Of a stretch of DNA of 64,000 nucleotides, positions 1,103-60,682 are shown in pieces. A model generated the notes under the pieces. It worked only from the letters and a program-made list of their open reading frames with translations. It ran no database searches and was not told where the DNA came from. The stretch is taken from the NCBI GenBank assembly GCA_014192065.1, contig BJHH01000002.1, positions 372,001-436,000 of the forward strand, in the 5' to 3' direction. How positions within the stretch are numbered: position 1 is the stretch's first letter; every line of letters begins with the position of its first letter. The DNA is from Gemmatimonadota bacterium. GTDB taxonomy: Bacteria > Gemmatimonadota > Gemmatimonadetes > Gemmatimonadales > Gemmatimonadaceae. A program made the translations under genes and the position numbers.

Positions 1103-1277
1103 AGGATAAAAATGGCGATGGGTGACGCGAAAGGGGTGAATGGCGACGGACGCCGCCGCCCTGCGTGAACCGGTCCTCGTACGACTCGGCGAGCCGAGCC
1201 ACTGCTGCAGAAGCCCGCCGCGGCGAAGGCGCAGCAGGCGGCATAACTTGTCCGAGCCCTGACCTGGAACACTGCCC

Positions 1278-2177
1278 ATGCTCCGATTGCTGATTGTTGC
1301 CTCCGCCGTATGCGTGCTCAGCGCCTCGCCCGAGGCGCGCGCGCAGGCCGGACGCGACCAGTCGTCCGCCGCGTCGGTCTCACCCAATGGCAAACAGCTC
1401 GGCTACCTGTGCGACCGCGGCGACGGCTCGCAGGTCTGTGTCAGCAACGTAGACGGCTCGCAGGAACTGCAACTCACCCAGGGTCCTATTCCCTACGGCC
1501 GCCCGCGCTGGAACCGGGACGGATTGCGCCTCAACTACGCAGTGTTCGAGAATGGTGTGTCGCTGTTGTTTGAGAGTGCACCGGACGGCGGTCAGTCAGT
1601 TCGTGTGGCGACGGTGCCAGGCCGGAACCCAATCCTGCTGCCCGATCCCAAGAGCGTACTTTTTTCGACGCCCGATGGGCTCACCATGCAGATCATGGTC
1701 TCGTACCGTGACGGCTCGAACGCCAAGCGCATTTCGGACGGCGTCGGCGCGATTTCCAACGCCGTGATTTCGCCGGACGGCAAGCAGGTCGCGTTCACGC
1801 GGAACGTGCGCCCGGCCCCGCTCTCTGTCTGGGTAATGAACATCGACGGCACCAGCGCGCGTCAGGTGACCCGGTTTTCAGCAGGGGACGGCGGCCCCCA
1901 GTTCCCCGCCTGGTCGCCTGACGGAAGACAGCTGGCCGTGCAATCCGCCGTACGGAGTCCGCGCGACACCACGAAGTTTATCGGCCACATCTGGGTCGTC
2001 GAGCTCGCCACCGGCAAGGCGACGAAGCTGGCACCGCACGACGCACCGTACGTGGACGAGATTCCGGACTGGTTTCCCGACGGCAAACGCATTGCATTCC
2101 AGAGCGACCGGAGCGGCAGGATGGCAATCTGGATCATGAACGCCGACGGCACGGGCGCTCGGCAGGTCACGAAGTGA
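1278..2177 (+). CDS. Secreted TolB-like PD40 beta-propeller protein
   Basis: 299 residues with a Sec signal peptide (LLIVASAVCVLSA, then a probable cut after ARAQA). The rest is a run of PD40 blades, each with the S-P-[ND]-G-K/R signature, for example SPNGKQLGYL, SPDGKQVAFTR, SPDGRQLAVQS and FPDGKRIAFQS, followed by IWIMNADGTGARQVT. These resemble the C-terminal propeller of TolB, but the N-terminal TolB domain is missing. It is likely a periplasmic protein-binding propeller. It is read divergently from the dehydrogenase, with about 175 bp between the two starts, where both promoters must lie. Confidence 0.85.
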   Translation: MLRLLIVASAVCVLSASPEARAQAGRDQSSAASVSPNGKQLGYLCDRGDGSQVCVSNVDGSQELQLTQGPIPYGRPRWNRDGLRLNYAVFENGVSLLFESAPDGGQSVRVATVPGRNPILLPDPKSVLFSTPDGLTMQIMVSYRDGSNAKRISDGVGAISNAVISPDGKQVAFTRNVRPAPLSVWVMNIDGTSARQVTRFSAGDGGPQFPAWSPDGRQLAVQSAVRSPRDTTKFIGHIWVVELATGKATKLAPHDAPYVDEIPDWFPDGKRIAFQSDRSGRMAIWIMNADGTGARQVTK

Positions 2178-2235
2178 CGGCAACCTGACGGCGAATGCGG
2201 CATCACGACATTTCAACCGAACACCACGGAACCGT

Positions 2236-3687
2236 ATGACAGCAAACAAGACACCCGAGCATCCGCTGCAACTGAGCGGCGCAGAGATGCGCGCCCTCGG
2301 CGCGCGCGCAATGGAAATGGTCGTCCGTCACTTCGAGAACAACCGCGACGAACCGGTCGCGTGCACATTGCCGCGCGCCACGACGGAGCTCCTGCTGCGC
2401 ACGCCGCTGTCCGAGCACGGCACGCCGGTGAACGAGCTGCTCGATATCGTCGCGCGCGACGTGTTTCCCAATTCGCTCAAGACCGACCATCCCCGGTTCT
2501 ATTCGTTCGTGCCGAGTCCGACGAACTTTGTGAGCGTGGTGGGCGACCTACTCACCAGCGGACACAACGTATTTGCCGGCCACTGGATGGCAGCATCGTC
2601 CGCGGCGCAAGTCGAACTTACCGTGCTCGACTGGCTCAAGGAGCTCATCGGATTCCCGGCCGACGGCGCCGGCATCTTCGTGAGCGGCGGCTCGATGGCG
2701 AACCTGTCTGCCATTGCCGCCGCGCGCGACGACCGGCTGGGCGGCCCGGCGGCTGACGCGGTGGTGTACTGCTCGGACCAGACACATTCGTCGGTTGCCA
2801 AGGGACTGCGCCTGATCGGATTTGCGCCGAACCAACGACGCATCGTTGCCACCGACGACGACCTGCGCCTGTCGATTCCCGCGCTCGAGGCGGCGATCCG
2901 CGCCGATCTGGCCGCGGGGCTTCGGCCGTTCTGCGTCGTGGCCAATGCCGGTACCACCAACACGGGCGCCGTCGATCCGCTCGGGCCATTGGCGCAGCTC
3001 TGCGCACGCGAAGGACTCTGGCTCCACGTGGACGGTGCGTATGGCGCCGCCGCCGTCATCACCGAGCGCGGGCGCGCTGCGCTCGCCGGCATCGAGCTCG
3101 CCGATTCGGTCACGCTTGACCCGCACAAATGGCTCTTCCAACCCTACGAACTCGGCTGCCTACTCGTCCGTGACGCGGGCGCATTGCGCCGTGCGTTCCG
3201 CATTGAGGACGACGACCATCCCGACTACCTCGTCGACGTCGTCCGGCACGTCAAACACGACGTGAACTTCTTTGAGTACGGCCCGCAACTCACCCGCTCC
3301 TTCAAGGCGCTCAAGCTCTGGCTCTCGCTACGCGCCTTCGGCCTCGCGGAGTTCCGCCGCGCCGTGGACGTTGGATTCGATATGGCCGAGCATGCCGAAC
3401 GCACGCTCCGAGCGAGCGGCGCGTGGGAAGTCGTCACGCCAGCACAGATGGGAATCGTGACCTTCCGTTGGCGGGACGATACGAAGACGCCGCAGGAGAT
3501 CGACGCCATCACCTCGCGCACCGTAGACCTGATGCGCGAGGACGGCTACGCGCTCGTGATGTCCACGATGCTGCGTGGCCGCCCGGCGCTGCGGCTCTGC
3601 CCGATCAACCCTGGCACCACCGCTGCGGAAATCGACGAAACGATCGCGCGATTACAGCGTTTTTCCGCTCAGGGGAATCCTGCCTAG
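2236..3687 (+). CDS. PLP-dependent aromatic-L-amino-acid decarboxylase family protein
   Basis: 483-residue group II pyridoxal-phosphate decarboxylase, the family of DOPA, tryptophan and tyrosine decarboxylases, which convert amino acids to amines plus CO2. The PLP lysine is in DPHKWLF (K298). The Asp that pairs with the pyridine nitrogen is in VDGAYG (D266) and the ring-stacking His is in QTHSS (H184). Length is typical of the family and all active-site elements are intact. It lies 58 bp after the propeller gene on the same strand, so they may be cotranscribed. Preference for aromatic substrates is inferred from family similarity only. Confidence 0.87.
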   Translation: MTANKTPEHPLQLSGAEMRALGARAMEMVVRHFENNRDEPVACTLPRATTELLLRTPLSEHGTPVNELLDIVARDVFPNSLKTDHPRFYSFVPSPTNFVSVVGDLLTSGHNVFAGHWMAASSAAQVELTVLDWLKELIGFPADGAGIFVSGGSMANLSAIAAARDDRLGGPAADAVVYCSDQTHSSVAKGLRLIGFAPNQRRIVATDDDLRLSIPALEAAIRADLAAGLRPFCVVANAGTTNTGAVDPLGPLAQLCAREGLWLHVDGAYGAAAVITERGRAALAGIELADSVTLDPHKWLFQPYELGCLLVRDAGALRRAFRIEDDDHPDYLVDVVRHVKHDVNFFEYGPQLTRSFKALKLWLSLRAFGLAEFRRAVDVGFDMAEHAERTLRASGAWEVVTPAQMGIVTFRWRDDTKTPQEIDAITSRTVDLMREDGYALVMSTMLRGRPALRLCPINPGTTAAEIDETIARLQRFSAQGNPA

Positions 3688-3723
3688 CGACGCACGATCG
3701 GGTAGGGCCAGCGTCCAGCCCGA

Positions 3724-4677
3724 CTATCGCGGCGGCAGCTTGCCGTCGATTTCGTCGTAAATCTTTCGTACCGCCACCGGTGCTTGCTGGTCGGCGATAA
3801 ACCAATCCTTGTACGGCCCCCAGCTGGCCTGCTTGATCGCGTCATCCGCCGAGAGGCCGAGCGCATGCAGCCGCTTCACTTCGGCGATCACGTCAACCAA
3901 CGCCTTGCGGAAGGCGACCAGTTCCTCGCGTGAGGCCGCGGACTCTTCAATGAAGCCGTGCCCTGGAATGAAGCGTCGCACATCGAGCGCCAGCGCACGG
4001 TCCACGGTCGCGATCCATTCCGAGGGAAACGCCGAGCGCATCGCGGGAAAGACGCGATTGAGATAGGCCTCGCTCATGAACAGGATCTTGTCGCGCGGGA
4101 TGTAGACGCTGAGGTCGCCACCGGTGTGGGCCCGTCCAAGAAAACGGACGCTCACGCCGATTCCGCCGACGTCGATGGTCTGTTCGTCCCCAGACATCGC
4201 GACCGGGGGAACAATGACGACGCGTGGCGCGGCGCCGGCCCGCCCAGTTGCGGCCGCTGCCGCCGAATCACGCACCAGCTGTGCGCGCGACGCGGCGTGC
4301 ACGACATAGGTGATGTCCTTGGGCAGCACCGCATTGCCAGCCGTATGGTCTCCGTGGTCGGAGCCCACCACGTACCACTTGACCGGGAGTGGTGTGATAG
4401 CGCGGATCTTGTCGAGCATCGTCTGCGTCGCAGCCGTGTTGCCTTGCCCATCGGCAATGAGGACGCCGTTCTTTCCCACGACGATCATGCTCACCGTAGT
4501 GAACCCAGGCTGCCGGATTTCTTCGTAGCCGTAGACGTCGGTGGCGAGTTTCACCACGCGCGGGAAGTCGGTGAGTTGCAGCCCGCGCTTGACCGGATCG
4601 GCCGTACGGGGCTGGGCGGCAAGGGTGCCGCTGGCGACCAAGAGCGCGAAGAGCGCGCGGATGACATGCTTATGCAT
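3724..4677 (-). CDS. Secreted metallo-beta-lactamase-fold hydrolase with altered metal motif
   Basis: 317 residues with a signal peptide (ALFALLVASGTLAAQ). The MBL fold is supported by the beta-strand/loop SDHGDHTAGN (106-115), RAHTGGDLSVYIP, and the late PGHGF histidine. In the usual HxHxDH motif the first histidine is replaced here by Ser106, while His108, Asp110 and His111 are kept. Secreted MBL proteins of this class are often annotated as quinoprotein-relay or beta-lactamase-like. The reaction is unknown. Its stop lies 37 bp from the end of the convergent decarboxylase gene, and its start is 37 bp from the divergent secreted protein. Confidence 0.82.
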   Translation of the reverse strand: MHKHVIRALFALLVASGTLAAQPRTADPVKRGLQLTDFPRVVKLATDVYGYEEIRQPGFTTVSMIVVGKNGVLIADGQGNTAATQTMLDKIRAITPLPVKWYVVGSDHGDHTAGNAVLPKDITYVVHAASRAQLVRDSAAAAATGRAGAAPRVVIVPPVAMSGDEQTIDVGGIGVSVRFLGRAHTGGDLSVYIPRDKILFMSEAYLNRVFPAMRSAFPSEWIATVDRALALDVRRFIPGHGFIEESAASREELVAFRKALVDVIAEVKRLHALGLSADDAIKQASWGPYKDWFIADQQAPVAVRKIYDEIDGKLPPR

Positions 4678-4714
4678 GGGGATTCACCGTTAGGGACTCC
4701 GGGAGAGGATACTC

Positions 4715-5194
4715 ATGACTCGCACCGCCCGCTATGCCGCCGTGGCCATCGCCGCGATGATGCTCGTCACCATCTCGCTGTCCGCCCAGGGTGCGGCGGC
4801 AGCCAACCCACGCTTTGGCCGGTGGAAACTCAAATCCGACGCGCCCGCGCCGCAGAGCAACATCATGACCTACGAAGCATTTGGCGCCGCGGGGATGAAG
4901 GTCACGATCGAGTCGGTCAGCGCGAGTGGTGATTCGACGTCATGGTGGTACACGACGGAGTTCGACGGCAAGGAGATGCCGGTCACTGGGAACCGCGGGC
5001 AGACGCACTCCGCCGTGCGCCGAGTTTCCGATCGGGTCACCGAGATCGTCAACAAGCGCGACGGCACCGTCACGCAGCTGCTGACGAACGTCCTCTCGCC
5101 GGACGGCAACACGATTGCCGTCATGTACATGCGCGACGACGGCACCGGAAAGACGACCGGCGTGACCTTTGCTACGTACGAGCGAATGCGGTAG
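4715..5194 (+). CDS. Secreted protein of unknown function
   Basis: 159 residues. A clear signal peptide (AAVAIAAMMLVTISLSAQG) precedes a small beta-rich domain starting NPRFGRWKLK, with strand-like segments (MTYEAFGAAGMKVTIESV, WWYTTEFDGKEMPV, VTQLLTNVLSPDGNTIAVMY). I do not recognise a named family. The pattern resembles small periplasmic lipocalin-like or calycin-type proteins, but this is only an impression. Only 37 bp separate its ATG from that of the divergent MBL gene, so the two probably share a promoter region. Confidence 0.7.
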   Translation: MTRTARYAAVAIAAMMLVTISLSAQGAAAANPRFGRWKLKSDAPAPQSNIMTYEAFGAAGMKVTIESVSASGDSTSWWYTTEFDGKEMPVTGNRGQTHSAVRRVSDRVTEIVNKRDGTVTQLLTNVLSPDGNTIAVMYMRDDGTGKTTGVTFATYERMR

Positions 5195-5412: not shown

Positions 5413-6201
5413 TCAGACGGGTGGCTTATCGCTGACGGAATCGGCTGGTGCGGTCGACTGCGCGAATGGCTCGTGCAACTGCACCGGCACGACCGATTTC
5501 GCGCGTTTTCGCATCCGGATGTTGAGCATCTCGACCAACACCGAGAATGCCATCGCGAAGTAGACATACCCCTTCGGCAGATGTTGGTCGAACCCGTCGG
5601 CGATGAGCAGCACGCCAATCACAAGCAGGAACGCTAGGGCGAGCATCTTCACGGTCGGGTGGGCCGACACGAACCGACCGATGCCGCCCGCAAAGACCAT
5701 CATCAGCGCGACGGATGCGATCACCGCTGCGATCATGACCTCCACCTGCTTGGCCATGCCAACCGCCGTGATAATCGAATCGAAGGAAAAGACGATGTCG
5801 ACGACCACGATCTGGAGCAACACCGCCCGGTAGGCCGCCTGCACGGACGATGACTCCTGGCCGGCCTCGCCTTCGAGCAACTGGTCGATCTCCTTGATGC
5901 TCTTCCAGAGCAGAAAGAGGCCGCCGCCAATCAAGATCAGGTCGCGAGCAGAGATGGCGTTACCAATCACTGTGAACAGTGGCGCGGTCGCCCCAACGAT
6001 CCATGCAATACCGAAGAGCAGCGCGATACGCATCACCATCGCAAGGAGCAGCCCGATCCGCCGCGTCGCCTCGCGGCGTGCGACGGGCAGCTTGTCGACG
6101 AGGATGGCGATGAAGATCACGTTGTCAATGCCGAGCACGAGCTCCAGCACGGTCAGCGTGATGAAGGCGAGCCAGGCTTCGGGTTGGGTCAGTAGTTCCA
6201 T
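5413..6201 (-). CDS. TerC family integral membrane protein
   Basis: 262 residues and several transmembrane helices, in the order expected for TerC/Alx-type proteins. The N-terminal helix carries the hallmark ELVLGIDNVIFIAIL, with the acidic residues thought to bind Mn2+ or other cations. A second copy appears in VVVDIVFSFDSIITAVGMA. The family is linked to metal-ion homeostasis and export, and classically to tellurite resistance. The C-terminal 30 residues after RMRKR are polar and probably cytoplasmic. It starts 9 bp from the end of the upstream symporter gene, so the two are probably cotranscribed. Confidence 0.9.
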   Translation of the reverse strand: MELLTQPEAWLAFITLTVLELVLGIDNVIFIAILVDKLPVARREATRRIGLLLAMVMRIALLFGIAWIVGATAPLFTVIGNAISARDLILIGGGLFLLWKSIKEIDQLLEGEAGQESSSVQAAYRAVLLQIVVVDIVFSFDSIITAVGMAKQVEVMIAAVIASVALMMVFAGGIGRFVSAHPTVKMLALAFLLVIGVLLIADGFDQHLPKGYVYFAMAFSVLVEMLNIRMRKRAKSVVPVQLHEPFAQSTAPADSVSDKPPV

Positions 6202-6210
6202 GACGGGTGC

Positions 6211-7896
6211 TTAGTGCGGTTGGGTGGACGGGCGGTGGACGTCGCGGCTGAACGCGCTGATCGCGAGCCCGCTAGCCACCGCGGTGACGACGGCCACGAC
6301 GTTGTACCAGAGGAAACTCACGGTCGGGTAGGACCAGCTCACGAAACCAACTGCGACGAGACTGATGATCATGCCGAAGAAGGCGCCGGCCGCACGCGAC
6401 CGTGGGATCATCGCAAGAATGAAAACGCCAAGGATGGATCCGTAAAAGAACGATCCGAACTTGTTGACCACTTCGATGAGCGAACCGAGCGACGCCGCGT
6501 AGATCGCGACCACGCAGGCCACGAGCCCCCAAGCGGCCGTCGCGCCGCGGGACACAGCGAGATAATGCGAGTCGGAGGCCTCGGGCTTCACCCACCGCCT
6601 ATAGAAATCGATGACGGTCGAGGTCGAGAGCGACGACAGTTCGCCAGCGACCGCGCTCATCGCCGCCGCGATCACGGCGGCGATGAAGAGCCCCGCGAGC
6701 CCGATGGGCAGTTCGTTCAACACGAACTGCGGAATGATGTAGTTCACGTCGCGCGTCGAACTGCCGATCACCTGCTGGGCCTTCTTGAGCGCGTCGGTAC
6801 GAATCGCGCCGTACGCCGAATCGGCGGTCCGGAAATTGGCGCGCACCGTGGCCGCGTCGCCCCGCGGCGTACGCGCGACCTCGTTGGCCAGCCGCGCGCG
6901 CAGGTTCCACGCCGCGTTGGCCTCGCGTTCGAGTTGCACGAATCCACTGGGGTCGGCGGCCTGCACCGCGCGCGCGTGCGCCGGATTCCACATCATCGGC
7001 GGCGTCACGAACAGGTAGTACACAAACACCAGGACACCCACGAGCAGGATCAGCGCCTGGAGCGGGATTTTCCAGAACGCGCTCATGAGGTGCGAACTGC
7101 GCGCCTCGTCCACGCTGCGTGCCGTGAGGTACCGCTGCACCTGGCTCTGGTCGGTCCCAAAGTACGAGAGCATCAGGAAAGTGCCGCCGATGATCCCGCT
7201 CCAAAAGGTGTACGTTTTCGTCAGATCAAACGAGAAATCGAACACCTGCAGCCGGCCGGCCGCGCCGGCCACGGTCAACGCTGCATCGGGACTCACGGGG
7301 ATCTTCACGAGCAGCACGATCACGACGGCGATGAGCGCGGTCACGATCACGAACATCTGCTTCACGTCGGCCCAGGTCACCGCCTGCACGCCACCGATCA
7401 CCACGTACAGCACCGTCGGAATGCCGATCAGCGCGACGGAATAGATCATCGGCCAGCCGAAGATCGCCGAGAACACCACGGCTGGCGCCGCGATGATCGT
7501 TCCGCACGATAACCCGCGTGAGCAGAGAAAGAGCAGCGCCGTGAGTGACCGCGTCCGCGGACCAAACCGCCCCTCGAGGAACTCGTAGGCCGTATAAACC
7601 TTGGCCTTGTGCAGGTAGGGCACGATGGTCACGCCGAGGATGACCATCGCGACCGGCAGACCGAAGTAGAACTGCACGAACTTCATGCCGTCCACCGCGC
7701 CCTGTCCGGTGGTGCCGATCATCGTGATCGCCGAGAGCTGCGTGGCCATCACCGTGAGGCCCACGGCCCACCAAGGCAATGAGCGATTGGCAAGGAAGTA
7801 GCCTTCGATCGTCGTGAGTCCGCGCGCGCGCCGGATGCTGTCGCTCACCACATAGGTGAGGTAGCCGATCACGACCGCCCAGTTGATCCAGTGCAT
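6211..7896 (-). CDS. Sodium:solute symporter (SSS family)
   Basis: 561 residues with about 13-14 membrane helices typical of SSS transporters (SglT/PutP fold), such as GLTVMATQLSAITMIGTTGQGAVDG, which matches the Na+-site region of TM1-TM2. An unusually long polar loop (MMWNPAHARAVQAADPSG through ALKKAQQVIG) sits between helices about two-thirds along; such loops occur in SSS members of Gemmatimonadota and Acidobacteria. I start at the ATG at 7894-7896 (MHWINWAVVIGYL), 5 bp after the stop of a 31-residue ORF, rather than at the longer frame. The substrate is unknown; sugar, amino acid or carboxylate are all possible. Confidence 0.9.
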   Translation of the reverse strand: MHWINWAVVIGYLTYVVSDSIRRARGLTTIEGYFLANRSLPWWAVGLTVMATQLSAITMIGTTGQGAVDGMKFVQFYFGLPVAMVILGVTIVPYLHKAKVYTAYEFLEGRFGPRTRSLTALLFLCSRGLSCGTIIAAPAVVFSAIFGWPMIYSVALIGIPTVLYVVIGGVQAVTWADVKQMFVIVTALIAVVIVLLVKIPVSPDAALTVAGAAGRLQVFDFSFDLTKTYTFWSGIIGGTFLMLSYFGTDQSQVQRYLTARSVDEARSSHLMSAFWKIPLQALILLVGVLVFVYYLFVTPPMMWNPAHARAVQAADPSGFVQLEREANAAWNLRARLANEVARTPRGDAATVRANFRTADSAYGAIRTDALKKAQQVIGSSTRDVNYIIPQFVLNELPIGLAGLFIAAVIAAAMSAVAGELSSLSTSTVIDFYRRWVKPEASDSHYLAVSRGATAAWGLVACVVAIYAASLGSLIEVVNKFGSFFYGSILGVFILAMIPRSRAAGAFFGMIISLVAVGFVSWSYPTVSFLWYNVVAVVTAVASGLAISAFSRDVHRPSTQPH

Positions 7897-7901
7897 CGGG
7901 A

Positions 7902-7997
7902 TTACCCGTTGTACCGATACTGCAGCATGGCCAGCGCTGCCCAAACAACCAGTTCGGCAGCGAGGACCTTGATCAGGATCTTTCGAAATGCACCCAT
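7902..7997 (-). CDS. 31-residue single-span membrane protein upstream of the symporter
   Basis: A short ORF, MGAFRKILIKVLAAELVV..., runs from the ATG at 7995-7997 to a TAA at 7902-7904, five bases before the symporter start. It has a basic N-terminus (RK..K), one hydrophobic stretch (ILIKVLAAELVVWAALAML) and a short polar tail (QYRYNG). That layout is characteristic of a one-helix membrane peptide rather than chance translation. Tight spacing suggests translational coupling to the symporter, and it may be an accessory subunit or a leader peptide. No purine-rich ribosome site is obvious upstream. Confidence 0.55.
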   Translation of the reverse strand: MGAFRKILIKVLAAELVVWAALAMLQYRYNG

Positions 7998-8192
7998 GCG
8001 ATCGCTCTGAGGCTATTGCTGCGGAAAACCGCGAAGATCCGCGGTGAAGGATTCAGAGATTGACGAAGCACACCACGGCATACACCGACGGAAATCACCG
8101 TTGTTCTAGGTCCCCAAAAAGTAGTTGCCGTGGAGTCTCCGTGACACTCCGAGTAGCTCCTCCGCAACTCTCTGCGGCTCCGCTTGCAGATC
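7998..8192. other. Intergenic region with a CTCCGTG-type phrase
   Basis: This 195-bp gap between the PIG-L gene and the small membrane ORF probably holds the promoter of the latter. On the plus strand, 8137-8183 contains repeated short phrases (CTCCGTGACACTCCGAG, GCTCCTCCGC, GCGGCTCCGC) resembling those at 10891-10916 and 11061-11087, and AAAAAGTAG occurs at 8116-8124 as it does near 11008. I see no ORF or RNA gene in it. Confidence 0.4.
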
Positions 8193-10871
8193 CTACGGCG
8201 TCGGCCGCGAAGCTTGCGGTACGCCAGCGGACAGCAGGTTCACGAACAACCGCGCCGCACCAGGCACCGCGCCCGGCAGCTGCCTGAAAAGCGAGAGGGT
8301 CGTGTACACGTACACCCCCTTCCCTATCGGTGTCATCAGGATCGCCCCCCTGTTCTCCTTCTCGCCTGGGTCGTGCATCTCCAAGGGCGACTGGTACCGC
8401 GGATCGACGGTACTCGGCATGTACAGCGCGCGCTCCTGCACCCAGCCCTTCCAGTCGTCGTCGCCCAGCCTGTTCGGGAAGGTGAGCACCTTCGACTTCG
8501 GGTCGAGCACCGTCACCGGAGCAGCCTCGACCGTCACGCGCTCGGCGGGCTGCGACCAGGTCAGCGGAAACGGAAACACCTGGGGAGTGGAAGCAGGATT
8601 CTGTCCGTACTGGATGACCAACGTGCCACCATTCTTCGCAAAATCCATGAGACGCGGAGCGGAGGCAACGAGCGCGCGGTTGGCCTCAAACGCGCGCGTG
8701 CCAACGACCACGGTCGAGAAGCGCGATAGGTCCCACTGCGGCAGCTCCGCGGGCGTGATCACGGTGACCGGCACGCCGAGTTGACGCAGGAACACCGCGT
8801 TGTCGTCGCCCACACCCTGGACGTATGCCACCGTAAGCCGCTGCGGGACTTCGATTTCCACGGCATTCAGGTAGAGCCCCGACGTGCGATACCGGTAGAT
8901 CGGACGGATGTGGGGATAGATGATCGCACTGAATCCCTCGGCAAACAGACCGGTCGTTGGATCGCTACCCACGATGCCGAACTCGTGGCGGCCGGGCTTC
9001 AATACGCCGCGGAGGCGGAGGAAAATTTCCTGCTGCTCGAACGCTTCAATGGTGATCGACGGCGGCACCGAATCGACCGTGATGCCGGCCGGCGCCACCA
9101 CGCGAAGCGTAAAGGTGCGCGGCCCATTGGCAAACGACTTGACCGTCACTCGCAGCATGCGATCCATCGGCCGGCCGGCTGGGATCCATTCGAGATTGCG
9201 GTCGAACTCGAGCGTCACCGAAGGCACTCCACCGAACGGGCGGTGCTGGATGCCGAGCAGGGGGTCGGCACTGAGGAAGTGCACGGGGCCGGCACTCACC
9301 ACGGCACTCACGCCACCGAGCTCCAGCGTCAGGCGCACATCGGTCATCCGCCGCATCTCTTCGGAGACCGCGACGGACGGCACGAGGTCACTGGACACCG
9401 CCGACACGCGAGCCATGCCATCGAGCGGCGACTGTTTCGCGGCAAACATGGCCTCGTCTCTGCCGCCAATCCACCAGGGCCGAAGATCGGGCAGGCCGAT
9501 GATCCGCTGCGGGACGTCGATCGTGGCGCCAGGCTGCAACGTCATCGCCTCGAACCCGCTGCGCGCGCCACCGGTCACACGGACGTCGGCGATGGTAATC
9601 GCGGCCCTTCCATGATTCGTGATCGTGATCACGGCCGGCAGTGAATCGCCGAACGCCAGCATCTCGCGTGACACCACGGCATCGACGCGGAGTTCCGCTG
9701 CGGCCAGCAGCGCCTGCGTTGCGCGACGCTCGAGGGTTTCGAGGGCCGCGTCCAGATCGAGCTCTCCGGCCGTGCACCGCGGCGGCGCGCCTACTCCGGC
9801 CCGCGAGATGAACTGGGGCATGACTCGCACCGCACAACGCACAAACTGGCTCCGGACCTGCTGGATGGACGACGTCATCCGGGCAAGTATCGGCGCCACC
9901 CGCCACGGCTCGCGCAGGTTGAGCAGCGCATGCGCGGAGTCGGCCTTGATCGAGACCCCTTCGAGATTGTCCTGCACGCGGGCGGGCGCGGAAAGCAGCA
10001 GGCGCTTGAACGTGGTGTCGATACCGTCGAAGATGGACTTCTCTGCCGCGGGATCGACGCTCTCGTTGACGCGAGTCACGGCGCGCACGAGCGAGCCGCC
10101 GAACAACGCAAAGCCGCCACGCCCCGTCCGGACCGCGACGTCGCCGAGTCCCTGCGACCGGTGCTGGGAACGACTTTCGAGCGCGATCTCGTTGTACGTG
10201 CGACCAGCGACCGGATCATACTCATTCACCGGGATCGTGATCCCGGCGCCCCGCACATAGAATTTCAGCGGCATCCACGGTTCACCGTACCGGCGTACGG
10301 GAAAACGCACCGTATCGATCGCGGCGTCGAATGCCTCGCGCGCCACCAGCCCCGCAAACTCATGATGGCCGTGTCCGTCGGCGCGCGTGCCGCTCCAGAT
10401 CGAGTAGATCACCTGAGGCCGGAACGCGCGAATCACGGTGACGACGTCGCCGAGCACCGAGTCCCGGGGCCAGTGCTTGGCCGTTTCCTCGGCGTTCTTG
10501 GAAAACCCAAAGTCAAATGCGCGTGTGAAATACTGACGGCCACCGTCAATGCGCCGCGCGGCGAGGAGTTCTTCGGTGCGAATCGCGCCAAGCGGTTCGC
10601 CGAGTTCGTTGCCGATAAAGTTCTGGCCGCCATCGCCGCGCGTGAGCGAGAGATACGCCGTCTCGACCTGCCGCCCGCGCGCGAGCCACGCAATGGTCTT
10701 GGTGTCTTCATCGTCCGGATGCGCGCCAATGACGAGCACGCGCGCAGAGGTCGCGAGTCGGCGCACCAGCTGGTCGAGTTTCGGCGCGCCCCCGTCCTGG
10801 GCGTGCGCCGCTGGCAACGCGATCGTGATCGCGAGAGCAGCGCCCGTGAGGTTGGTACAGAATGCAGTCAT
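8193..10871 (-). CDS. Secreted PIG-L family (LmbE-like) deacetylase, large form
   Basis: 892 residues. A signal peptide ends near AAHAQ. The N-terminal 200 residues are a PIG-L/LmbE domain with the zinc motif GAHPDDE (50-55) and the late HGHHEFAG histidines (about 167-170). This family removes N-acetyl or similar groups from GlcNAc-type substrates. About 650 further residues form beta-sandwich-like segments (AITITNHGRAAITIADV, FTLRVVAPAGITV) and a last domain resembling a class I glutamine-amidotransferase-like fold (VVVGTRAFEANRAL). I chose the ATG at 10869-10871 because an AGGTGAGAA ribosome site and the signal peptide fit. The exported location points to periplasmic glycan or glycoside processing. 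Confidence 0.85.
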   Translation of the reverse strand: MTAFCTNLTGAALAITIALPAAHAQDGGAPKLDQLVRRLATSARVLVIGAHPDDEDTKTIAWLARGRQVETAYLSLTRGDGGQNFIGNELGEPLGAIRTEELLAARRIDGGRQYFTRAFDFGFSKNAEETAKHWPRDSVLGDVVTVIRAFRPQVIYSIWSGTRADGHGHHEFAGLVAREAFDAAIDTVRFPVRRYGEPWMPLKFYVRGAGITIPVNEYDPVAGRTYNEIALESRSQHRSQGLGDVAVRTGRGGFALFGGSLVRAVTRVNESVDPAAEKSIFDGIDTTFKRLLLSAPARVQDNLEGVSIKADSAHALLNLREPWRVAPILARMTSSIQQVRSQFVRCAVRVMPQFISRAGVGAPPRCTAGELDLDAALETLERRATQALLAAAELRVDAVVSREMLAFGDSLPAVITITNHGRAAITIADVRVTGGARSGFEAMTLQPGATIDVPQRIIGLPDLRPWWIGGRDEAMFAAKQSPLDGMARVSAVSSDLVPSVAVSEEMRRMTDVRLTLELGGVSAVVSAGPVHFLSADPLLGIQHRPFGGVPSVTLEFDRNLEWIPAGRPMDRMLRVTVKSFANGPRTFTLRVVAPAGITVDSVPPSITIEAFEQQEIFLRLRGVLKPGRHEFGIVGSDPTTGLFAEGFSAIIYPHIRPIYRYRTSGLYLNAVEIEVPQRLTVAYVQGVGDDNAVFLRQLGVPVTVITPAELPQWDLSRFSTVVVGTRAFEANRALVASAPRLMDFAKNGGTLVIQYGQNPASTPQVFPFPLTWSQPAERVTVEAAPVTVLDPKSKVLTFPNRLGDDDWKGWVQERALYMPSTVDPRYQSPLEMHDPGEKENRGAILMTPIGKGVYVYTTLSLFRQLPGAVPGAARLFVNLLSAGVPQASRPTP

Positions 10872-10890
10872 TGGTGTTCTCACCTGTGCA

Positions 10891-11087
10891 GACCGTGGAA
10901 CCACGGAGGTTCGCGGACCACCGCCGGAGCTTCGCGGAGACGACCACGAAACAAAAACTTGGGGGAACGGCAACGGCCTCAGGCTCCTGTCGTGGTCGTT
11001 TCCAGCAAAAAGTAGCGTGCCTAACGGGTGCAGGCTCCGCGGCGGGTCCGTGCTGTCACTCCGTGAACCTCCGTAGTTCCGCAGACC
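10891..11087. repeat. Imperfect inverted repeat in intergenic DNA
   Basis: Between the 2-oxoglutarate dehydrogenase and PIG-L genes, 10891-10916 and 11061-11087 are imperfect inverted copies of one another. Reverse-complementing the first gives CCGCGAACCTCCGTGGTTCC, against CCGTGAACCTCCGTAGTTCC in the second; 21 of 26 aligned bases agree by eye. A related phrase lies at 8137-8183. The 253-bp gap has no convincing ORF. It looks like an interspersed non-coding repeat or a remnant of one. Confidence 0.5.
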
Positions 11088-11124
11088 AAATCGGATGAGC
11101 ACCGACGCCTGCGGAGTCGCGGAG

Positions 11125-39127: not shown

Positions 39128-40011
39128 CGGGTCCAGATCAGCATGAGGCCACAGGTGTTCCGCATGCCGTTGTACTTGGTCGGAATCGATGCCGCGCTCG
39201 CGTAATACTCGATACCCGCGATGACCGATGGTCCGATCGAGTTGATGTCGAATGGTGGCTCATCCCGCGAAATGGAGCCCGTGGCAGTCGGACTGCCATA
39301 GTTGCCCTGGTAGACAAAGATGCCGTCCAGCACCACGGCGGCGAAACAGGGACCGGGCTTGGCCCCGCCATTTGCCATGGCTCCGCCCGGCACCTGCATC
39401 CGGCCTCCCACGACATAGGCCTGCGATGGCCGCACGACATCGCGCATGATCTCCATGCCCGGGACCTTGGTGCGGATGATGTCCGCCGTGACACTGTATG
39501 CCCGCTTGTCGATCTCGTCCTGCGTGATGAAGCGGCCACCCACGCCCGCCGTCCTGCGCTCCTCGAACTCCGCCAACTTTGGCGGAAGCGCGCGCTTGGC
39601 ATTGACGTTCACGTCCGGAAGATCCTGCACATTCCGCGTCATCAGGAAATCAGCTTCGACCGCGAGGTTCGCGGTGAAGCGCACGCGGGTAGCCAGCGCA
39701 CCGAACCCAATCCGTTGCGCACGCACGATGTACTCACCCGGCGCGATGCCCGTAAGCACGAAGTGGCCGAGCGAATCGCTGATGGTGTGCCGTTTCAGTT
39801 CGTCGATGGCGACCACCACGCCAACAATCGGCCGATCGATGGAATCCGTGAGCGCGCGTCCACGCAACGTCGCGGACTGCGCACTCAGCGCGAGGGAAAC
39901 CAGCGGTACCAGGAGCGCTCCGTGCGTCGAACTCAGCACACGCTCCCTGACCGCTCGCCCTGCGCCAAATCGTTCGGAACTCACCACACGCCCTCCCGCG
40001 TCAGCCGTCAC
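39124..40011 (-). CDS. CarboxypepD_reg/TonB-plug protein without barrel (copy 2)
   Basis: Up to 295 residues; the same two-domain plan as copy 1 and about 60% identical by eye over most of its length, with a small insert (GNYGSPTATGSISRDE) near the end. It finishes NTCGLMLIWTR. The frame opens with a GTG at 40009-40011 overlapping the methyltransferase stop (GTGA). Later GTGs, for example at 39939, would give a tidier signal peptide (LSSTHGALLVPLVSLALSAQ), so the start is uncertain. A tandem duplication is the simplest origin. Confidence 0.78.
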   Translation of the reverse strand: MTADAGGRVVSSERFGAGRAVRERVLSSTHGALLVPLVSLALSAQSATLRGRALTDSIDRPIVGVVVAIDELKRHTISDSLGHFVLTGIAPGEYIVRAQRIGFGALATRVRFTANLAVEADFLMTRNVQDLPDVNVNAKRALPPKLAEFEERRTAGVGGRFITQDEIDKRAYSVTADIIRTKVPGMEIMRDVVRPSQAYVVGGRMQVPGGAMANGGAKPGPCFAAVVLDGIFVYQGNYGSPTATGSISRDEPPFDINSIGPSVIAGIEYYASAASIPTKYNGMRNTCGLMLIWTR

Positions 40012-41072
40012 TCCGCCTGCATATCCCGCAACACCCCCCTTGCTCCCTTCCCGGCCACAAAGATGAACTCGTTGTTCCGGAGTTTCCCCACCTTTCCGAC
40101 CTTTTCGCCGCGGGGGTTATAGATCCCGATCCGCGCGCCGACGTACCGCTTGTGCGACACCGGAATCGCGGCCACCTCGCCGTGCGAGTCCTCGAGCAAC
40201 GACACGATGTCTTCGAACGCGAAGAACCCCTCATCACTGAACGAGACGATCAGATGTTTCGCAGGCACCGTGCGCACCAGTGACGAGAACGCCCCCCACG
40301 CTTTCACGCGCGAGTTGAACGGGCTCTTCACCGTACGGCAATCCTCGCGCTTGCGCGCAATGCCATACGCCTCCGGCGCGTCGTGCCGCACGAGTGTTTC
40401 CCAAATGTGGTAGTTGGCGTGGTACGAATGCTGGTTGTATGGCGGATCGAGGTACGCGATGTCCACCTCGTCCATCTGCGATGCGAGCGTGTTCGCGTCC
40501 TGGCGCACGGCACGGCCACGCCCTGCGTTGAGTTCCGGCATTCGCAATGTGAGCGGATTGAACGAGCGCGGCGCCCACTGTTTGAGGTACGCCATCTGCA
40601 GACCAGTCGTCGAATCCACGCGGTCCGCCGCCTCCATCAAAGAGGTCAGCAGCACGGCGCGCTCCACACGGCCGTCCGCGACTTCCTCGATCGCATCACG
40701 GATGGCGTCGATCCGGCGACCATTCGCCGGCTGGAAGTAGCGCGACTGTTCGCAAAACGTTCGCGTGACATAGCCATCGTGGCCGGGCAGCGCGTTCAGC
40801 CGTGCAATCTTCTCGGCCAGCACGCGCTTGCGCACGCGCTTGGCGTCTGCCTCGATGTACGTCGTCGCCAGGACCTCGCCGTAGGTCGCCAGATCGTTCG
40901 CGGTGACGAAGTACCCAGCCTGCTTGAGCCCCTGCGCGACCCGAGTCGTGCCGGAGAACAGGTCACAGGCGGTGGTGGCGTGCTTGGTCGCACCCGTGCG
41001 CGCACGCAGCGCGTCGGCCACCGCCACGATGCGCGTGACCAGCGTTCGCTTGGATCCGATGTACTTGATCAC
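40008..41072 (-). CDS. D12-class N6-adenine DNA methyltransferase (orphan)
   Basis: 354 residues. The N-terminal MIKYIGSKRTL, motif I DLFSGTTRVAQGL (37-49) and motif IV IAYLDPPYNQHSY define an adenine-N6 (Dam/D12-type) methyltransferase. No restriction endonuclease or specificity subunit is adjacent, so it may be a solitary epigenetic enzyme or a type II relic. The recognition sequence is unknown. It overlaps the downstream plug gene and begins 25 bp after the upstream membrane protein gene, so it sits inside a transcription unit. Confidence 0.87.
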   Translation of the reverse strand: MIKYIGSKRTLVTRIVAVADALRARTGATKHATTACDLFSGTTRVAQGLKQAGYFVTANDLATYGEVLATTYIEADAKRVRKRVLAEKIARLNALPGHDGYVTRTFCEQSRYFQPANGRRIDAIRDAIEEVADGRVERAVLLTSLMEAADRVDSTTGLQMAYLKQWAPRSFNPLTLRMPELNAGRGRAVRQDANTLASQMDEVDIAYLDPPYNQHSYHANYHIWETLVRHDAPEAYGIARKREDCRTVKSPFNSRVKAWGAFSSLVRTVPAKHLIVSFSDEGFFAFEDIVSLLEDSHGEVAAIPVSHKRYVGARIGIYNPRGEKVGKVGKLRNNEFIFVAGKGARGVLRDMQAE

Positions 41073-58040: not shown

Positions 58041-59495
58041 TCAGCTCATCCAGTTCGTTCCGGCCTCGCGATTCCACTTCGTCGTCATCTTCTTGGACTG
58101 GGTCCAGAACTCGATGGATCCCTTCCCAGTAATATCGCCCACCCCGAACCGGGAATCATTCCATCCACCAAACGAGAACGGCTCGCGCGGCACGGGTACA
58201 CCGACGTTTACGCCCACCATGCCCGCGTTCGCACGCTCCATGACCTTGCGCGCCACACCACCGCTTTCGGTATACACCGACGCCGCGTTCCCATACGGCG
58301 ACGCATTCTCGATCGCGATCGCCTGGTCAACGTCGTCCGCCCGAATGATCGCGAGCACAGGCCCGAACACCTCTTCCTGCGCGATCTGCATCTCCGGCCT
58401 TACCTGGTCGATGATCGTCGGCCCGATAAAATATCCGTGCTCCTTGCCGGCGACGGTCACATGGCGGCCATCGACGATAACCTTGGCGCCCTGCGCTTCG
58501 GCTGCATTGATGTAGCCAATGATCCGCGCCTTGGCCTCAACCGAAATGACGGGACCAATGTCCTTGCCCGGCACCATCGCCCTCGCAATCTCGGCGGCGC
58601 GAGCGATGACGTGGTCGGTCGCAGAGACGGCGACCATGACCGAGGCCGCCATGCAGCGCTGACCCGCGCACCCCGACATGGAGGCGACGATGTTGGACGC
58701 CGCCATCTCCTGGTCCGCATCGGGCATCACGATCAGGTGATTCTTCGCACCGCCGAGCGCAAGGCATCGCTTGAGGTTGTTCGTGGCGCGGCGATACACG
58801 GCCTTCGCGATCTTGGTCGAACCGACGAAACTGATGGCGCTGATATCGGGATGGTCGCAGATCGCTTCGACCACCTCGCGGCCACCGTGCACCACCTGGA
58901 ACACCCCGGCAGGGAGTCCCGCTTCGGTCAACAACTCGGCGATCCGGCCGGCGGAAAGCGGAACGAGCTCCGACGGCTTGAGAATGAAGCAGTTGCCCAA
59001 TGCGATTGCGTTGGGAATCGACCAGTGGGGCACCATGTTCGGAAAGTTGAACGGCGCGATGCCGGCTACGACGCCGAGCGGAAACCGTTCGATGCGACAT
59101 TCCACGCCGCGGCTCACCTCGAGCACTTCGCCCGTCGCGATCTGCGGGAGTGAGCAGGCGAACTCACACAGTTCGGCCGCCTTTTCCACCTCTGCGCGGG
59201 CCTCGCTCACGATCTTGCCGTTCTCCTCAGAGATCAGCGCCGCAAGCTCGTCGATGTGCTGTTCGAGCAGCCTCTTGTAACGGAAGAAGACTTGCACTCG
59301 CTGCTTGATCGGCATTGCCGACCAGGCCGGAAATGCGCGCTTGGCGGCCGTCACGGCCGCGTGGAGTTCGGCGACCCCAGACAGGGGAACCCGCGAAATC
59401 ACGGTGCCCATGGCCGGATCGAACACGTCGAGAGCCGGCAGTTCCGCGGTAGCGAACGTGCCGCCAATATAATTGCGCACCTGAGGATACTTCAT
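58041..59495 (-). CDS. mmsA: CoA-acylating methylmalonate-semialdehyde dehydrogenase
   Basis: 484 residues. An aldehyde-dehydrogenase fold with APFNFPNMVPHWSIPNAIALGN, the nucleophile in GCAGQRCMAAS (Cys281) and GGAKNH, the variant typical of the CoA-dependent MMSDH subgroup that replaces the usual general-base Glu. It turns methylmalonate or malonate semialdehyde into propionyl- or acetyl-CoA. The start at 59495 (MKYPQVRNYIGG) agrees with the family; the frame upstream is not conserved. It forms an operon with the AGXT2-like gene. Confidence 0.92.
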   Translation of the reverse strand: MKYPQVRNYIGGTFATAELPALDVFDPAMGTVISRVPLSGVAELHAAVTAAKRAFPAWSAMPIKQRVQVFFRYKRLLEQHIDELAALISEENGKIVSEARAEVEKAAELCEFACSLPQIATGEVLEVSRGVECRIERFPLGVVAGIAPFNFPNMVPHWSIPNAIALGNCFILKPSELVPLSAGRIAELLTEAGLPAGVFQVVHGGREVVEAICDHPDISAISFVGSTKIAKAVYRRATNNLKRCLALGGAKNHLIVMPDADQEMAASNIVASMSGCAGQRCMAASVMVAVSATDHVIARAAEIARAMVPGKDIGPVISVEAKARIIGYINAAEAQGAKVIVDGRHVTVAGKEHGYFIGPTIIDQVRPEMQIAQEEVFGPVLAIIRADDVDQAIAIENASPYGNAASVYTESGGVARKVMERANAGMVGVNVGVPVPREPFSFGGWNDSRFGVGDITGKGSIEFWTQSKKMTTKWNREAGTNWMS

Positions 59496-59566
59496 ACGCT
59501 GAGAGTGTCGACGCGGTGGCTCATTCGCAAGCGCCGCCGCCTGGTGGTTCGGCACCCCCACCTCGG

Positions 59567-60682
59567 TCAGGCTGCCGCCGCGAGTTTCGACGCCCGCGCT
59601 GAACGCAGCATGGAAATCGACGTGTACAGCACAACAACGACGACGAGCCATCGCACCGTCGTCAGCGACATCGATTTCACAATGATCGCCGCGATGAGCA
59701 CGGCCGGCACACCGGCCATGGTCAGTCCGAGCGACGGGCGGAGCGCGTACGACCGCTTCTTCACGAACCGTTCGCTCGCGATCGGCATCAGGAAGGCACA
59801 CGAACCCATCATGATGGGGAATGCGGCCGTCGGGTTCATGCCAAGCAGCGAGATCATGATCAGGCAGGGTGCGTACATCCCGACGCCAAGCGTCATCAGT
59901 GCGCCGAGCATGAAGTTGCCAAGGAACGCCACCACGAGCAGCCCGCCCGACAGCGCAAGCGCCTCACCGCCGGGAATCATGGGCGCACCACGCATCTCGT
60001 CGAGATTCTTGATGATGAAGAGCAACGCCGCGATGGCAAGTGTCACGCCCATGCCAAGCTGGATGTTGCGCCGAGACCATCCGGCGACCACTCCCGCACC
60101 GAGCCGCGCGCCGAGCACCGAGGCGAGCAACAGGACCACGAGCGTGGTGAAATCAACTTCGACGATGGCAATAAAGATCAACGCTTCGGCGATCGTCGGG
60201 GGCGTATGGCCAACGTTGAGGGAACCTGGAATCAGCCGGTCGTCCGCCACTTTCCACGCCTTGAACATCGCGGTGGTCGGCGCAAACGAGCCGATGCCGA
60301 GCGTGTCGAAGAAGTTCGTGACGAACCCGATAAAGAGTTCGATCGGCTTGGGCCAGCCCGTCTTGCCCCGGTGCATCACGTACGGCACGGCGACGCCGAG
60401 GATCGTAATTGAAGCGATCGCGATTAGCATGCTCACGTTGGCGCCGTTCGGCCCAAACGGATAGCTGATCGTAAACGCACCAGCGTCGTACTGTACGCCG
60501 CCGCCGGCAACCCAACCGAACAGCAGTCCCAGCACCAGGCCGATCGCGAGTGCCAACGGCGACGGACTGCCTTCAGCAGCAGTCGCACCCTCTCCATCGG
60601 GCAGCACGTTGCGCACCCAGGTCACTGCGTAGTACGCGACGAACAGGCCAAGGGCCAGAAACAGCCATGCTTTCGGCGTCAT
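59567..60682 (-). CDS. TSUP (TauE/SafE) family membrane transporter
   Basis: 371 residues and about nine helices. The two TSUP half-motifs are seen in GFVTNFFDTLGIGSFAPTTAM and VAFLGNFMLGALMTLGVGMYAPCL. The family exports or imports sulfite, sulfonates and similar anions; the substrate is not determined here. The ATG at 60682 follows a GAGGGAACGCTGAG ribosome region. A link to the adjacent catabolic genes is possible only by neighbourhood. Confidence 0.88.
   Translation of the reverse strand: MTPKAWLFLALGLFVAYYAVTWVRNVLPDGEGATAAEGSPSPLALAIGLVLGLLFGWVAGGGVQYDAGAFTISYPFGPNGANVSMLIAIASITILGVAVPYVMHRGKTGWPKPIELFIGFVTNFFDTLGIGSFAPTTAMFKAWKVADDRLIPGSLNVGHTPPTIAEALIFIAIVEVDFTTLVVLLLASVLGARLGAGVVAGWSRRNIQLGMGVTLAIAALLFIIKNLDEMRGAPMIPGGEALALSGGLLVVAFLGNFMLGALMTLGVGMYAPCLIMISLLGMNPTAAFPIMMGSCAFLMPIASERFVKKRSYALRPSLGLTMAGVPAVLIAAIIVKSMSLTTVRWLVVVVVLYTSISMLRSARASKLAAAA

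Follow-up and report, generated by a model that had tools for sequence, protein, structure and literature searches.

The window analysed here, a stretch of 64,000 nucleotides of Gemmatimonadota DNA taken at its full length, carries a gene for a sodium:solute symporter (SSS) directly preceded by an open frame of only 31 codons. Two questions follow: does so short a frame encode a protein and, if it does, does this protein serve the carrier?

The microprotein gene and its locus

A 31-residue membrane ORF had been predicted at this place without mention of a strand. It exists on the minus strand, where it reads 7997..7902 from ATG to TAA and encodes MGAFRKILIKVLAAELVVWAALAMLQYRYNG; a plus-strand reading of 7902-7997 is not an ORF. 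The predicted distance of 5 bp between its stop and the symporter ATG is exact (7901-7897), and the description as one helix behind a basic N-terminus is correct, the only hydrophobic stretch being preceded by R5, K6 and K10. The conserved core of the protein can be written FR..L..VL..E....L.LL..LQ.RY. The features of the locus are collected in Table 1. A gene for a TerC-family membrane protein (5413-6201, minus strand) starts 9 nt past the symporter stop.

Table 1 Features of the microprotein locus, in window positions
Feature	Position	Strand	Description
Sodium:solute symporter gene	6211..7896	-	561 aa; SSF fold; TIGR00813 above cut-off
Spacer	7897..7901	-	5 nt, microprotein stop to symporter ATG (at 7896)
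Microprotein gene	7902..7997	-	31 codons + TAA; basic N-terminus, one predicted transmembrane helix
Intergenic gap	7998..8192	-	195 nt, PIG-L stop to microprotein ATG
PIG-L (LmbE-type) hydrolase gene	8193..11102	-	open frame of 969 codons, upstream of the microprotein gene

An RNA element or riboswitch in the gap upstream of the microprotein gene was considered and rejected, as the Rfam search of this gap gave nothing above the gathering score and a single chance match (E 0.5). A search of the same gap for a sigma-70-like promoter gave none.

The ORF taken by itself is unremarkable. A mechanical filter for transmembrane (TM)-like ORFs of 25-70 aa that end between -45 and +4 from a start fires for 4 of the 38 gene-sized ORFs of the window, among them the microprotein and the symporter's own tail, and bare ORF statistics were for this reason rejected as evidence. 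The remaining two, of 67 and 65 aa, terminate immediately upstream of the large genes at 40008-41072 (-) and 58041-59801 (-), and may be small membrane genes or the tails of longer ones. It is conservation that takes the microprotein beyond chance.

The symporter

The carriers of the SSS/SLC5 group include SGLT1/2, NIS and SMCT. The window's carrier belongs to the SSS family both by PF00474 (SSF; 152.5 bits, cut-off 22.8), which is its only Pfam match above cut-off, and by TIGR00813 (238.1 bits, cut-off 184). Assignment to the VC_2705-type symporters was rejected (72.4 bits with TIGR03648, whose cut-off is 320.75), and the corresponding small-subunit model, TIGR03647 (DUF4212), does not match the 31-aa protein. 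Plasmid records yielded only distant SSS proteins, of at most 31% identity, and no orthologue of the symporter.

The small ORF and the symporter share one frame in seven loci. The fold of the carrier was approached through the orthologue at locus L165, where both lie in one frame and were folded as a read-through chain with the stop read as serine. The model is confident overall (mean pLDDT 91.4, pTM 0.90); the microprotein is modelled as one helix (residues 9-39, pLDDT 73-79) in a chain that forces it and the carrier together. The best structure matches of the carrier part are SSS proteins, with SiaT (5nva) at Z 43.6 and rmsd 2.4 over 465 residues, and the carrier also aligns with NIS, SMCT1 and SGLT1/2. 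These alignments, which for SiaT cover the whole carrier length and for SGLT2 end near residue 572, leave the small helix uncovered, which is uninformative for a single helix. Judged by this model of an orthologue, the carrier has the SSS/LeuT-type fold, and we infer that it is a complete carrier of 13 helices to which the small protein would contribute one more.

Conservation in Gemmatimonadota

A symporter search of 61 relatives gave 30 loci with a close orthologue, and a homologous frame lies immediately upstream in all 30. The stop-to-start distance ranges from -1 to 37 nt, and several loci (e.g. L003, L008, L012 and L018) show an overlap of the start codon with the stop before it, in the form TGATG, ATGA or GTGA. 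Among the 27 aligned forms of the microprotein, V11, L22 and Q26 are invariant. In the 18 pairs with 4-22 nucleotide differences, which share sequences and do not amount to 18 independent tests, dN is lower than dS throughout; the microprotein genes of L010 and L011 differ at 7 sites, all of them third positions. Selection at the protein level is visible in these comparisons.

The whole phylum was covered by searching 298 genomes separately for the microprotein profile and for the symporter and joining the results by position. The microprotein was counted at E<=1.6e-4, which retains 129 of the 185 genomes that match at E<=1, weaker matches being ignored; a symporter match occurs in 153 genomes, of which G151, G166, G193 and G205 were left out of the join as they had no listed place. 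All 129 strong profile matches are directly upstream of a symporter of 58-100% identity. Conversely, 129 of the 131 placed close symporters (58-100%) have the microprotein, and contig ends truncate the remaining two: the contig of G142 ends at the locus, and in G178 the symporter match begins at base 3. The spacing between the two genes ranges in this join from -1 to >100 nt. The symporter matches in G074, G115, G131, G181 and G284 contain one internal stop codon.

As a control, 20 SSS paralogues from the same genomes were put through the mechanical filter, and none has a TM-like ORF in that position, while the filter is positive for 29 of the 30 close loci and for 69 of 80 loci from a broader scan (the named loci, see below). 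The distances between microproteins and those between their symporters are correlated over 104 loci (r=0.73; the highest value among 2000 permutations was 0.075), a figure in which shared ancestry is kept and for part of which common descent accounts.

These results bear on the most sceptical reading of the locus, according to which the frame is not a separate gene and represents either the symporter's own N-terminal part, misread, or a frame left open by chance. High-GC DNA does yield many open frames, and TM-like ORFs close to an AUG arise by chance, as the filter's hits in the window illustrate. Nevertheless, the frame is conserved, each gene keeps its own stop and start, and the phase relative to the symporter varies over all three possibilities, being 17, 8 and 5 in the 30 close loci and 58, 9 and 8 in 75 named loci. 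This reading is scarcely credible. The frame is almost certainly a genuine, overlooked microprotein gene linked to the symporter, and the proposed tie between a small membrane protein and an SSS carrier stands on both the close loci and the profile matches.

Relatives of the microprotein in other symporter loci

A further 18 Gemmatimonadota symporters are more distant (44-48% identity, here class B) and have no match to the microprotein profile. Ten of the 18 loci were read, and all ten have, at the same place, a different-looking small ORF of about 50-60 aa with an acidic N-terminus and the consensus G.IGIFPSW...Y..VV.YT...I..L...T..L; homologues of the window's PIG-L occur in eight of them. 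Direct comparison of the two Gemmatimonadota profiles gave a weak match (probability 20%), yet in the expected register.

A genome-wide scan with both symporter classes led to the 80 named loci, which come from Gemmatimonadota, Acidobacteriota, Bacteroidota and Ignavibacteria and from single MAGs labelled Aminicenantes, Chlorobiota, Gammaproteobacteria, Myxococcales and Deltaproteobacteria. In 78 of them a small TM ORF occurs near the symporter, and in 76 it is adjacent upstream; in L139 and L160 the small gene is 3.7 kb and 0.9 kb upstream, and L108 and L120 are without it. Stop and start overlap by 4 nt, mostly as ATGA, in 55 of 75 adjacent named loci. The forms found in Acidobacteriota beside the symporters closest to that of the window (L107, L117, L122, L127, L128 and L146) look intermediate.

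The relationship between these forms was examined with a profile made without any Gemmatimonadota sequence. The window protein's group scores a median of 12.8 bits with it, against a decoy maximum of 10.3, and 21 of the 27 members exceed 99% of shuffles and TM decoys; all nine class-B forms reach at least 15 bits. By this profile evidence, the microprotein group belongs to a wider SSS-linked family of predicted single-helix proteins of 31-60 aa. The family is absent from Pfam and NCBIfam, in which no model matches the microprotein beyond sub-cut-off chance matches. The DUF485, DUF997, DUF3311 and DUF4212 models match neither the 31-aa protein nor 16 other forms, and a literature search found no description of this small protein.

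Eight loci (L133, L141, L149, L157, L168, L171, L172 and L176) have a second TM-like ORF of about 60-70 aa before the single-helix ORF, its end lying some 105-114 nt ahead of the symporter. By its appearance it is a two-helix protein common to Sphingobacteriales-type genomes.

Bacteroidota offer a view of how stable the pairing is. The symporter is present (E<=1e-80) in 60 of 148 genomes, and 42 give a match to the microprotein profile. Thirty-seven of these matches are adjacent to the symporter, four are about 15 kb away and one is in a genome without a symporter match. Nineteen symporter genomes have no profile match; in 16 of these, the filter and inspection by eye revealed, immediately before the symporter, a TM-like ORF of 33-54 aa, which brings the symporter genomes with an adjacent small gene to 53 of 60. 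Three symporter loci (L232, L237 and L238) are without it, and in them the stop of PIG-L overlaps with the start of the symporter. Since these three genomes keep the symporter without the microprotein, the small gene is not universally required and can be lost.

The original prediction would have been undermined by absence of the frame from relatives with the same symporter. That comparison has now been made, and the frame was found in all of the close loci, as well as in the large majority of the named and Bacteroidota loci.

The loci in which the two genes have moved apart are of interest for another explanation. The small ORF could be a leader for translational coupling, with the ribosomes that finish it loading the symporter start and the peptide itself doing little. 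Spacing that is tight or overlapping almost everywhere agrees with this, and a precedent exists in Pseudomonas, where CbrX, a 58-aa peptide, is encoded upstream of the SLC5-domain kinase CbrA: according to the available excerpts of PMC6591292, expression of CbrA is driven by the translation of CbrX and not by its sequence, as a frame-shifted peptide of equal length still works. Nevertheless, a mere leader fits poorly with amino-acid-level selection, invariant V, L and Q columns and a homology recognisable between phyla, as it does with the breadth of the spacings already described. Moreover, the gene is kept in L139, L160 and four Bacteroidota genomes although it is apart from the symporter and unable to couple. 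A leader peptide hence seems an unlikely explanation.

The PIG-L hydrolase and the possible substrate

The third gene usually found at these loci encodes a PIG-L hydrolase. By our reading, its likely start in the window is near 10871, with a signal-peptide-like beginning, MTAFCTNLTGAALAITIALPAAHA. The protein is about 890-970 aa long and has a large C-terminal part without Pfam match; none of its NCBIfam matches reaches the cut-off, and the highest-ranking model is that of mycothiol conjugate amidase (47.7 bits against 277). A PIG-L homologue is directly upstream in 20 of the 30 close loci. Among the 70 named loci having >3 kb of upstream DNA, 42 have PIG-L upstream and on the same strand.

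This frequent proximity raises the possibility that the microprotein is a partner or membrane anchor of the hydrolase and not of the symporter, and L139, where bsh genes separate the small gene from the symporter but leave it next to PIG-L, would agree with it. Yet ten of the 30 close loci have the microprotein without PIG-L directly upstream, and in six Acidobacteriota loci (L102-L104, L106, L115 and L116) PIG-L follows the symporter while the small gene still precedes it. A fusion of the two was sought in seven loci with long open frames and rejected, no PIG-L match being in the same frame. Finally, the three Bacteroidota loci that lost the microprotein retain both PIG-L and the symporter. 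An association with PIG-L instead of the carrier is therefore very improbable.

Bacillithiol genes are within about 5 kb in 7 of the 80 named loci, with curated BshA, BshB1 and BshC matches in L139, L177, L117 and L103. In L139 (Aminicenantes), BshC, BshB1 and BshA occupy positions 1195-4992, between the microprotein gene and the symporter. A link to the presence of BshC was also considered and is uninformative, as BshC occurs in 287 of the 298 phylum genomes, including that of the window. In the Bacteroidota genomes G347 (locus L239), G359, G375 and G421, about 15 kb separate the microprotein gene from the symporter; the block between them in L239, a Flavobacteria-like locus, contains NagB (above cut-off), a ROK kinase and a short PIG-L, and SusC/SusD-like genes were noticed by eye on the other strand. 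Both the bacillithiol genes and the NagB block centre on glucosamine derivatives, which suggests an amino-sugar or a bacillithiol fragment as substrate, a lead that we hold with low confidence. A literature search found no paper joining a PIG-L family deacetylase with a solute symporter.

Proposed role of the microprotein

The reading that we favor, with a probability of roughly 0.7, is that the microprotein serves this SSS clade as an accessory subunit of one helix, by analogy with the action of MAP17 on SGLT2 or of CbrX on CbrA's SLC5 domain. It would be the Gemmatimonadota form of a broader family that accompanies a single SSS clade in several phyla. The 31-residue protein would be produced together with the symporter through tight translational coupling and cross the membrane once, its N-terminus being probably cytoplasmic and its C-terminus, by the positive-inside rule, at the outer face. 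The N-terminus of SSS carriers likewise begins at the outer face. We infer that the microprotein physically partners the carrier, its helix packing on the outside of the 13-helix protein and aiding folding, stability or activity. The likely place of action of the PIG-L hydrolase, which has a putative signal peptide, is outside the cytoplasm, where its target would be an amino-sugar compound whose product the carrier would import.

Known small-protein regulators of transporters are mostly under separate control. The microprotein could be such a regulator, acting on carrier turnover or inhibition in the manner of MgtR, MgtS or SgrT and not as a structural subunit. Small single-helix proteins do so to other transporters, according to the excerpts available of a review (PMC10710835), but here the gene is in the same operon as the carrier, in a fixed order, and is presumably made in step with it. 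This alternative seems slightly less probable still than the leader peptide.

On a wider scale, it is possible, though we put it forward as a tentative scenario, that a phylum-spanning, unannotated family gives a clade of 13-helix symporters a detached extra helix, making them two-subunit carriers comparable to SGLT2-MAP17, and that together with a secreted PIG-L they form a salvage system for amino-sugars or bacillithiol fragments. Whatever its role, the pairing of one SSS clade with a conserved gene for a single-helix protein recurs across Gemmatimonadota, Acidobacteriota and Bacteroidota. If the accessory role is true, small-subunit control of SSS carriers would become testable in tractable bacteria such as Pedobacter, Mucilaginibacter, Dyadobacter and Pontibacter, and in practice it would be advisable to co-express the small protein when expressing these carriers.

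Comparison with known systems

Small membrane genes beside an SSS gene, as in the window, are found in the DUF485, DUF4212, DUF997 and DUF3311 families. Their proteins are longer than the microprotein and have about two helices. The pairings are DUF485 (YjcH) with ActP, DUF997 (YhdT) with PanF, and DUF4212/TIGR03647 beside SSS genes. The acs-yjcH-actP operon and the DUF3311 gene beside the MctP gene are described in the available excerpts of the literature.

Other known one-helix proteins, such as KdpF and CydX, bind and tune a membrane transporter or enzyme. AcrZ, MgtS, MgtR and MgtU also bind and tune such proteins, with other partners, and in the available excerpts of the review that describes them no SSS carrier paired with a small transmembrane protein was found (PMC10710835).

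For carriers of the SLC5/SSS type, a precedent of a small membrane accessory is MAP17 (PDZK1IP1), which acts with SGLT2/SGLT1 and which human SGLT2 requires for its activity (available excerpts of PMC12605011). The role of the microprotein would be analogous, although MAP17 is eukaryotic and longer and, unlike the microprotein, has a PDZ-binding tail. The only comparable bacterial case that our literature search found is CbrX. The original prediction had called the small partners of SSS carriers poorly known, which is fair for bacteria, but CbrX, bound to the SLC5 domain of CbrA, offers a direct precedent.

CbrX was shown by cryo-EM to bind the SLC5 domain and is dispensable for growth on histidine, according to the available excerpts of a preprint (PMC13022988). 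As far as these excerpts go, the two systems share a conserved gene for a small membrane peptide directly upstream of an SSS-fold gene, coupling being in our case deduced from the spacing. They differ in several respects: CbrX forms a hairpin of two helices whose ends are both inside, whereas the microprotein has one hydrophobic stretch, modelled as one helix; the partner of CbrX is a sensor (an SLC5-STAC-histidine kinase), that of the microprotein a free-standing carrier; and CbrX is confined to Pseudomonadaceae, whereas the microprotein family spans phyla. The hairpin and the kinase partner of CbrX indicate that the microprotein is not CbrX. Taken together, CbrX and MAP17 make a bound accessory peptide plausible, although CbrX, through its mode of expression, also keeps the leader peptide alive as a rival.
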